Made by a program: the position numbers and the translations under genes. Of a stretch of DNA of 64,000 nt, positions 5,681 to 59,295 are shown piece by piece; position 1 is the first letter of the stretch, and every line of letters begins with the position of its first letter. This stretch comes from Halobellus clavatus (GTDB taxonomy: Archaea > Halobacteriota > Halobacteria > Halobacteriales > Haloferacaceae). Below the pieces are notes generated by a model, which searched no databases, was not told the origin of the DNA, and saw nothing but the letters and a program-made list of their open reading frames with translations. The stretch spans positions 620,001-684,000 of the forward strand of contig NZ_FNPB01000001.1 in NCBI RefSeq assembly GCF_900107195.1. The letters are read 5' to 3'.

Positions 5681-5895
5681 AGGTTCACCACGGGCGCTTG
5701 CGATTCGGGCGACGTTCGACGCCGGCCCACATGTCGTCCCGATCCCTCGGGTGCCCACTGGCGTCCCGTTCGACCAGCGAGTTAGTGTCGCTACCGCCGT
5801 GGCGCTCTTAACGACTTCGAATGCGAATCAGGACGGCTCGCTGCTGGGAGTGCGGGAACGAACGGCTTTTGATGCCGGGTGTCGGAGGCGTACGT

Positions 5896-21168: not shown

Positions 21169-21239
21169 GCGCCGGTGGTCCAGTGGTAGGACAGTGGCTT
21201 CCCAAGCCACTAGCCCGGGTTCAATTCCCGGCCGGCGCA
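21169..21239 (+). tRNA. tRNA-Gly (anticodon CCC)
   Basis: A 71-nt cloverleaf. The acceptor stem GCGCCGG pairs with CCGGCGC and the discriminator base is A. The anticodon stem GTGGC/GCCAC encloses the loop TTCCCAA, giving anticodon CCC (reads GGG, Gly). The T arm is CCGGG-TTCAATT-CCCGG. CCA is not encoded and no intron is present. Its 3' end is repeated downstream. Confidence 0.96.
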
Positions 21240-34543: not shown

Positions 34544-34617
<74 letters not shown>

Positions 34618-37021: not shown

Positions 37022-37027
37022 TTATAT
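37022..37027 (+). promoter_or_regulatory. TATA element of RNA candidate A
   Basis: TTATAT at 37022-37027 lies 26 bp upstream of the conserved GCCGTGAC that opens the RNA candidate. That is the usual archaeal TATA-to-start distance. The second copy at 59186-59191 (TTATGT) has exactly the same spacing. Confidence 0.55.
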
Positions 37028-37047
37028 ACGAAGGCGGGGCCAGGACC

Positions 37048-37140
37048 GCCGTGACCTAACGCGAGTCCCGCGTCGGATCGCGGTCGTCCGGCACGTCGGC
37101 GCGGGGAAAACAGGAGTACGGGTGCCGGCTGTTCGCCCTC
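37048..37140 (+). ncRNA. Structured small RNA candidate, copy A
   Basis: A 93-nt block homologous to 59212-59295. It opens with GCCGTGAC and has a first stem CCGCG (37068-37072) / CGCGG (37079-37083) with a 6-nt loop. A 4-nt linker leads to a second stem CCGGCAC (37088-37094) / GTGCCGG (37122-37128) with a 27-nt apical region containing CGGCGCGGG. It ends CTGTTCGCCCTC. The stems are identical to copy B while the loops differ. It lies between the convergent nitrilase and dihydroorotase genes. No known RNA family was recognised; H/ACA or C/D guide RNA could not be shown. Confidence 0.65.
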
Positions 37141-44586: not shown

Positions 44587-45059
44587 GGCAGAGAGAGCTC
44601 GGCTCCCGTCGGTCCACACGGACCGATGAGGAAAGTCCCCCCACCGTCCGGACGGGTGACCGGGCGCAAGCCCGGAGTCGGAGACGGCTGGCGCTGGAAC
44701 AGAAACGAGACCCCTCGGCCCGACCGATGAGACGCGCTCGGCGGCGCGAGCCGCCGGCGGTGCGAGCGGGGTGACCCGCACGCACGCGAACCGACCCGCG
44801 AGGGAAGGGAGTTGACCCGTCGAGGGAACCGCGGTCGCGACGCGACCGCGGAACGTGAGCGGTGGAAGCCGCGAGCGCGTGCGCGTCCCGTGATTACGAC
44901 GGGCGAGCGGCAGAGCCGCACGCACGCGGGAACGGCCGAGAACGGATGGAACGGCGAATCCTCACCGGTGCAAGTCCGCGCCGCGAAGGTAGTCCGGACA
45001 GGGCGCGGGCGCTCAGCCGAATGCCGAGACGAACAGAAGGGGGCTTACTCCTCTCAGCC
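44587..45059 (+). ncRNA. rnpB: RNase P RNA
   Basis: About 473 nt. Conserved regions occur in order: GAGGAAAGTCC (CR-I, 44628-44638), ACAGAAACGAGACC (from 44699), GTGCAAGTCCGCGCC with CGAAGGTAGTCCGGACA near 44970-45000, and ACAGAAGGGGGCTTA (CR-V, 45033-45047). The ends close as stem P1: GGCAGAGAG (44587-44595) pairs with CTCTCAGCC (45051-45059) with one A-A mismatch. It is the catalytic RNA for tRNA 5' maturation. Long GC-rich helices in the specificity domain fit haloarchaeal type-A RNAs. Ends are set from P1, not from mapping. Confidence 0.95.
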
Positions 45060-59185: not shown

Positions 59186-59191
59186 TTATGT
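59186..59191 (+). promoter_or_regulatory. TATA-like element of RNA candidate B
   Basis: TTATGT lies 26 bp upstream of the conserved GCCGTGAC, matching the spacing found for copy A at 37022. The 34 bases from TATA to GTGAC align without gaps between both copies. Confidence 0.5.
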
Positions 59192-59211
59192 CGGAAGCCG
59201 GGAGCAGTCCC

Positions 59212-59295
59212 GCCGTGACGTGAGGAATGCCCCGCGCCGGGGCGCGGTTGTCCGGCACGCCGGCGCGGGCGCGATCGTGCCGGCTGTCAGCCCTC
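59212..59295 (+). ncRNA. Structured small RNA candidate, copy B
   Basis: An 84-nt block homologous to 37048-37140. GCCGTGAC is followed by 12 nt, stem CCGCG (59232-59236)/CGCGG (59243-59247) with a 6-nt loop, the 4-nt linker TTGT, and stem CCGGCAC (59252-59258)/GTGCCGG (59277-59283). The apical part is 18 nt with CGGCGCGGG retained. It ends CTGTCAGCCCTC, two bases before the stop codon of the convergent DUF5807-like gene. The two copies keep identical stems and spacing while loops and linker differ, as expected for RNA structure. Confidence 0.65.

Follow-up and report, generated by a model that had tools for sequence, protein, structure and literature searches.

Two short stretches of the 64,000-nucleotide window analyzed here (the whole stretch of Halobellus clavatus contig NZ_FNPB01000001.1 from position 620,001 to 684,000) resemble each other, copy A at 37022 to 37137 and copy B at 59186 to 59292, and they raise the question of whether they encode an RNA and, if so, what such an RNA may do. 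The original prediction took them for a structured RNA family of two copies with its own promoter. Their homology was confirmed; it extends from the TATA box to include the whole of the second of the two proposed stems, and the spacing between the TATA box and GTGAC is identical in the two copies. Copy A lies between convergent genes for a carbon-nitrogen hydrolase and a dihydroorotase-like amidohydrolase, and copy B between an unassigned gene and a DUF5807 gene, likewise convergent. The Rfam search found four RNAs elsewhere in the window, listed below with the parts of the two copies, and gave no match with Rfam 15 at the gathering score for copy A, copy B, or 20 other loci of the same genome, in agreement with the earlier remark that no RNA family could be recognized. 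A relaxed E value, applied to copy A and to 20 loci of related genera, likewise brought up nothing credible.

37022..37029, + strand: copy A TATA box (TTATATAC), promoter core, where the homology begins; T-rich/TATA columns at -30 to -24 in 160 copies
37035..37042, + strand: copy A SGSGRCCA box (CGGGGCCA), probable promoter or regulator site at -16 to -9; retained across genera, with column frequencies of 0.96 (G), 0.97 (C), and 0.83 (A)
37051..37059, + strand: copy A leaderless two-codon ORF GTG-ACC-TAA, whose first base is the predicted transcription start; [AG]TG-NNN-stop in 155/160 copies, with -1 pyrimidine (99%) and +1 purine
37067..37075, + strand: copy A P1 5' strand (CCCGCGTCG), by covariation
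37076..37087, + strand: copy A loop L1 with the conserved GCGG(T/G)NG motif, from the alignment of copies
37088..37094, + strand: copy A P2 5' strand (CCGGCAC) of the pseudoknot, in the strongest covarying column pair
37097..37105, + strand: copy A P1 3' strand (CGGCGCGGG), by covariation
37106..37121, + strand: copy A loop L3, whose length and sequence differ among copies (family range, 6 to 48 nt)
37122..37128, + strand: copy A P2 3' strand (GTGCCGG), by covariation
37129..37137, + strand: copy A conserved 3' tail CTGTTCGCC, where the homology ends; columns near-invariant, background beyond
59186..59193, + strand: copy B TATA box (TTATGTCG)
59199..59206, + strand: copy B SGSGRCCA box (CGGGAGCA variant)
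59215..59223, + strand: copy B leaderless two-codon ORF GTG-ACG-TGA
59231..59239, + strand: copy B P1 5' strand (CCCGCGCCG)
59252..59258, + strand: copy B P2 5' strand (CCGGCAC)
59261..59269, + strand: copy B P1 3' strand (CGGCGCGGG)
59277..59283, + strand: copy B P2 3' strand (GTGCCGG)
59284..59292, + strand: copy B 3' tail CTGTCAGCC
44587-45059, + strand: archaeal RNase P RNA (Rfam search)
21169-21239 and 34544-34617, + strand: two tRNAs (Rfam search)
5697-5751, - strand: eL15 ribosomal-protein leader, just over threshold (Rfam search)

The family is not confined to the two copies originally proposed. With copy A as the query, blastn aligned about 28 copies in the H. clavatus genome (3.75 Mb, 30 contigs), nearly all of the matches starting at the same TATA base, and a covariance model built from 28 of these blastn-derived copies retrieved 46 copies at an E value of <1e-7, 45 of which were full-length, with the next scores dropping sharply to an E value of about 5e-4. 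The 46 copies occur on both strands of the genome, and all of them are intergenic according to a codon-usage gene finder. Furthermore, the covariance-model search detected the family in at least 61 of 99 relatives and in at least 191 of the 293 genomes sampled from the haloarchaeal order (at least 50 of 78 genera); a phylum-wide sample yielded no match in the sampled non-haloarchaeal genomes, so that the matches are limited to haloarchaea. Carrier genomes contain from 1 to about 46 copies, the counts across sampled genomes being lower bounds. Two to four strong copies were found in genus g50, which probably corresponds to Haloferax, an assignment that is only suggestive, since Haloferax mediterranei plasmid DNA matches g50 best overall. 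In an exact-pattern search, the named matches all belonged to Halobellus; phage records provided no match of note, and a pattern search of viral contigs provided none. A degenerate 20-mer with 3 mismatches was discarded as a family probe, its matches being uninformative background in GC-rich genomes. From the sequences, it is almost certain that we are dealing with an RNA family, a vertically inherited, multi-locus, and haloarchaea-wide structured one.

Some observations concern single genomes. The 398-kb plasmid of Halobellus limi (NZ_CP031312.1) carries an unannotated copy (L177, 4001-4094) flanked by msrA and a dihydrofolate reductase gene, H. limi being the sole match in the plasmid searches for other genera, and at L098 one genome has two copies on opposite strands, some 400 bp from each other (1001-1128 on the - strand and 1501-1620 on the + strand). 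No copy was detected in the same-genus genomes G001, G008, G010, G012, and G016. Those among them that were examined at the dihydroorotase locus have a low GC content (0.47 to 0.51), and no copy adjacent to the dihydroorotase gene was recognizable in low-GC congeners; the copies of low-GC relatives may have diverged beyond the covariance model.

The fold indicated by covariation is an H-type pseudoknot, made up of P1 (9 bp, CCCGCGYCG with CGRCGCGGG) and P2 (7 bp), where YCGGCAC in the P1 loop pairs with a downstream GTGCCGR strand. In particular, when the column pairs of the 28-copy alignment were ranked without bias, the pseudoknot pair 78-151 came first (CG 16, UA 11, GC 1) and the P1 pair 57-96 second. 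In a set of 102 copies, 18 of which come from other genera, 98.6% of the P1 and P2 pair cells are standard, versus 27 to 45% for slid partners, and double-sided changes affect 182 cells, versus 25 in shuffles. P1 alone is paired in 98.8 to 99.1% of cases across copies, and the outer P2 pair occurs as five pair types, with pairing in 102/102 copies. Since the alignment was fitted to P1 and not to P2, the covariation of P2 is independent of the model and does not represent a fitting effect. There are 56 G-U cells as opposed to 5 A-C cells, an imbalance that identifies the + strand, the one originally proposed, as the transcribed one. Single-sequence folding energy was no better than that of shuffles, and thus the case rests on covariation and not on energy. 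Immediately past the pseudoknot, the 3' tail CTGTTCGCC is near-invariant and is followed by background, with no terminator-like T-run visible after it in the column frequencies across copies.

These results modify the original prediction in part. The RNA and its promoter are supported, and the second stem, CCGGCAC/GTGCCGG, is real and covaries, as P2 of the pseudoknot. As for the first stem (CCGCG/CGCGG, 6-nt loop), pairing of only 83% across copies and zero compensatory changes led to its rejection as a local stem; its 5' strand pairs with the later CGRCGCGGG strand to form P1, so that the second stem closes a pseudoknot. Two of the checks proposed for the structured-RNA reading, covariation among homologues and the search for a known Rfam family, were run, and neither spoke against it. 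The copy number had been underestimated, and both the pseudoknot and the peculiar 5' end of the element had been missed.

For that 5' end, we considered 161 distinct copies, with start and stop tallies on 160. Upstream, the copies share a TATA box at -30 to -24 and an SGSGRCCA box at -16 to -9; the -1 base is a pyrimidine (99%) and the +1 base a purine. On the basis of this pyrimidine/purine initiator and of the TATA position, the predicted transcription start was placed at the start codon; both features fit a leaderless transcript with a start predicted from the sequence. The occurrence of the SGSGRCCA box in nearly all copies suggests that one regulator, or one variant of a basal factor, may serve the whole family. 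Position +1 is the first base of GTG in 145 copies and of ATG in 15, and L198 alone has neither. The start codon is followed by one variable codon and then by a stop in 155/160 copies (TGA, 132; TAG, 17; TAA, 6; other, 5), which is the layout of a two-codon minigene, i.e., start, one sense codon, and stop. Among the 5 copies lacking a stop at the expected triplet, L054 has one a codon later. TGG at the stop position was observed 0 times, against about 14 expected from column frequencies (Fisher P = 5e-18, a value that overstates independence, since the copies are related, and that is indicative only). The same pattern is present in the initial blastn copy set and recurs at different loci and in different genera, and selection by the covariance model should not produce it, because TGG would outscore TAG. 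The spacer from the stop to P1 measures 6 to 7 nt in 137/160 copies, although its bases vary.

The second codon is variable and rich in ACC, ACG, CGC, and ATC, mostly codons for Thr, Arg, and Ile, and its first base is A or C in some 95% of the copies. The TAG stop is almost confined to copies with a preceding ACG codon (GTGACGTAG), for instance, L039, L041, L048, L050, L191, and L193, and this tie is unexplained by a pure stop-codon constraint. A small protein gene was rejected, given the stop after one codon in 155/160 copies and the variable length of L3, which breaks every frame: the L3 lengths are spread over all three frames (length modulo 3, 34/36/32), and therefore no longer ORF exists.

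The best explanation of these features, to which we assign a probability of roughly 0.6, is that the leaderless two-codon ORF and the pseudoknot belong to a ribosome-engaging small RNA produced from many loci; that the mini-ORF is really engaged by ribosomes is, by itself, likely. Each site would be an independent transcription unit, with a TATA promoter and the shared SGSGRCCA box, dozens of which would be dispersed in a genome, and the predicted RNA of about 80 to 130 nt would comprise the start codon, one codon, the stop, 6 to 7 nt, the H-type pseudoknot, and the CTGTTCGCC tail. Haloarchaeal ribosomes readily initiate on leaderless RNAs, and leaderless translation is the main mode in haloarchaea. 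A ribosome initiating on the leaderless 5' end would form one peptide bond (Met-X) and halt once the stop codon occupies the A site; the pseudoknot, 6 to 7 nt farther downstream, would then meet the mRNA entrance, much as the pseudoknots of readthrough and frameshift signals do. The stop codon would thus both engage the ribosome and prevent the unfolding of the pseudoknot. It is possible to hypothesize, if only tentatively, that the start-X-stop end, the shortest practical frame for leaderless initiation, parks a ribosome against the pseudoknot, so that the RNA may serve as a sensor of ribosome state or as a ribosome-bound regulator expressed from up to about 46 loci.

The same 5' end could also be read without ribosomes. 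The three triplets might go untranslated, serving as an initiator joined to a protein-binding site, and the pseudoknot RNA might be the scaffold of a ribonucleoprotein that does not involve ribosomes. In favor of this reading, GTG may be an initiator of fixed sequence, conservation extends to promoter sequence, as is evident from the SGSGRCCA box, and the tie of TAG to the preceding ACG is what a sequence motif might show. This reading is rather unlikely, because the third triplet corresponds to the exact set of stop codons, TGG being absent in spite of its single change from TGA, whereas TAG, two changes away, occurs 17 times. Furthermore, the start varies only between GTG and ATG, and the pseudoknot lies at a distance suited to a ribosome whose A site holds the stop codon.

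The genomic positions bear on whether the proposed ribosome-engaging RNA would act in cis or in trans. In H. clavatus, the upstream gene is divergent in 32/46 copies (binomial P = 0.011), the downstream gene is antisense (convergent) in 29/46, and both neighbors are antisense in 23 copies versus both sense in 8 (P = 0.011, 46 copies). The placement between convergent genes, correctly described for copies A and B, is not a family trait, being found in only 6/46 copies. A riboswitch or mRNA leader was rejected on account of the downstream gene, antisense in 29 of the 46 copies. An independent transcription unit avoiding read-through should show an orientation bias of this kind (P of about 0.01). 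The bias could also be anticipated if transcription of the element insulated or regulated its neighbors, opposing convergent read-through and sharing a divergent promoter region upstream, but all four neighbor arrangements occur, an independent gene would show the same bias, and neither the start-X-stop frame nor the pseudoknot is necessary for insulation. In addition, the neighbors at a handful of loci appear to be unrelated housekeeping genes, and we regard such a cis-acting element as unlikely.

The positions of the loci are stable. The copies compared from the sister-species genome G013 are, by their flanks, nearly all orthologous in position to those of H. clavatus (copy A corresponding to L142 and L169 and copy B to L146), one H. 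clavatus locus is also kept in genera g7 and g50, with neighbors that we take to be a zinc-ribbon-like protein and a HAD-like hydrolase, and in another family a copy (L249) is again placed next to the dihydroorotase gene, as copy A is. This positional stability argues against recent insertion, as would be envisaged by a reading in terms of IS200/IS605 omega-RNA. The elements at orthologous loci share 73% identity versus 69% at nonorthologous ones, and neither L3 nor the linker preceding P1 is conserved at orthologous loci, even within the genus. We favor trans action, since no gene context is common to the copies, individual loci do not retain their variable parts, and the downstream gene is mostly antisense. 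The RNAs would act collectively, with their stability, or their binding to protein or ribosomes, set by initiation and termination at the mini-ORF, and the complex might titrate, signal, or recruit a protein via the CTGTTCGCC tail; a trans-acting, translation-gated role of this kind is conceivable but still doubtful.

Bacterial two-codon minigenes, such as mg2 (ATG-ACT-TAA) in axe-txe, affect translation (PMC8708949), and in them a start, one sense codon, and a stop, the layout also seen in the haloarchaeal element, constitute a functional unit that engages ribosomes. The element might therefore be a two-codon minigene that causes peptidyl-tRNA drop-off or ties up ribosomes or tRNAs in bulk, for which the many copies would give the dose. 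We hold this to be improbable: the strictly paired pseudoknot and the tail are left unexplained, and no single tRNA would be depleted, since the second codon is any of many codons, mostly for Thr, Arg, and Ile. It is also very improbable that the family consists of conventional trans-acting antisense or guide RNAs in which L3 (6 to 48 nt) or the linker before P1, the variable parts of a fixed scaffold, pairs with a locus-specific target, given their lack of conservation at orthologous loci, where identity hardly exceeds that of nonorthologous ones, and the lack of a convincing rRNA complement for the conserved single-stranded motifs. Complementarity of the tail or of the L1 motif to rRNA was rejected, the sole 9/9 match (with one G-U) being to sequence that flanks the rRNA locus and not to the 16S gene itself; the rRNA was that of a congener, as neither a 16S nor a 23S rRNA gene is detectable in the H. 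clavatus draft assembly, probably because of an assembly gap. Finally, a dispersed, MITE-like mobile repeat carrying promoter and fold by chance would account for many copies on both strands of one genome but is hardly credible for copies that are old, diverged, and compensated and that occupy orthologous positions across species and, in a few cases, across genera.

The proposed ribosome-engaging small RNA shares traits with several known systems. H-type pseudoknots of readthrough and frameshift signals, such as that of murine leukemia virus gag-pol, follow a stop codon after a spacer of a few nucleotides and meet the ribosome there. The haloarchaeal element has the same succession of stop codon, short spacer, and H-type pseudoknot but, different from recoding signals, no conserved frame past the stop. 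Eukaryotic minimal upstream ORFs of the AUG-stop type (boron responsive) are ribosome-stalling sensors located upstream in an mRNA, whereas no sense gene lies downstream of the haloarchaeal element in 29/46 copies. The bacterial minigenes have Shine-Dalgarno sites, are embedded in leaders or coding sequences, and affect the gene downstream of them in cis (PMC8708949). In contrast, the haloarchaeal frame is leaderless, begins at the first base of the predicted RNA, precedes a pseudoknot, and stands alone in dozens of copies. Thus, none of the minigenes, recoding pseudoknots, and AUG-stop upstream ORFs is leaderless, stand-alone, and multicopy with a pseudoknot, and we know of no comparable RNA class in any domain.

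An open-access literature search, with subscription papers and preprints mostly outside its scope, found no description of the family, and no word beginning with "halo" occurs in the main text of a 2010 survey of 104 candidate structured RNAs. The family therefore appears to be previously unlisted, being undescribed in Rfam and in the open-access literature searched, even though it is a structured RNA class that reaches tens of copies per genome and is found in most of the haloarchaeal genera sampled. Covariance models and alignments would allow existing dRNA-seq and Ribo-seq data sets to be reread, and the 5' end predicts ribosomes on a two-codon leaderless frame before the pseudoknot. In Haloferax volcanii, sRNAs have been reported that are associated with ribosomes, apparently untranslated, and without detectable protein (PMC12482152). 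Ribosome occupancy without protein would be the signature expected of the haloarchaeal family, a likeness by description only, and the family could help to explain the ribosome-associated, proteinless sRNAs of Haloferax. More generally, it bears on the regulatory use of leaderless translation in haloarchaea.
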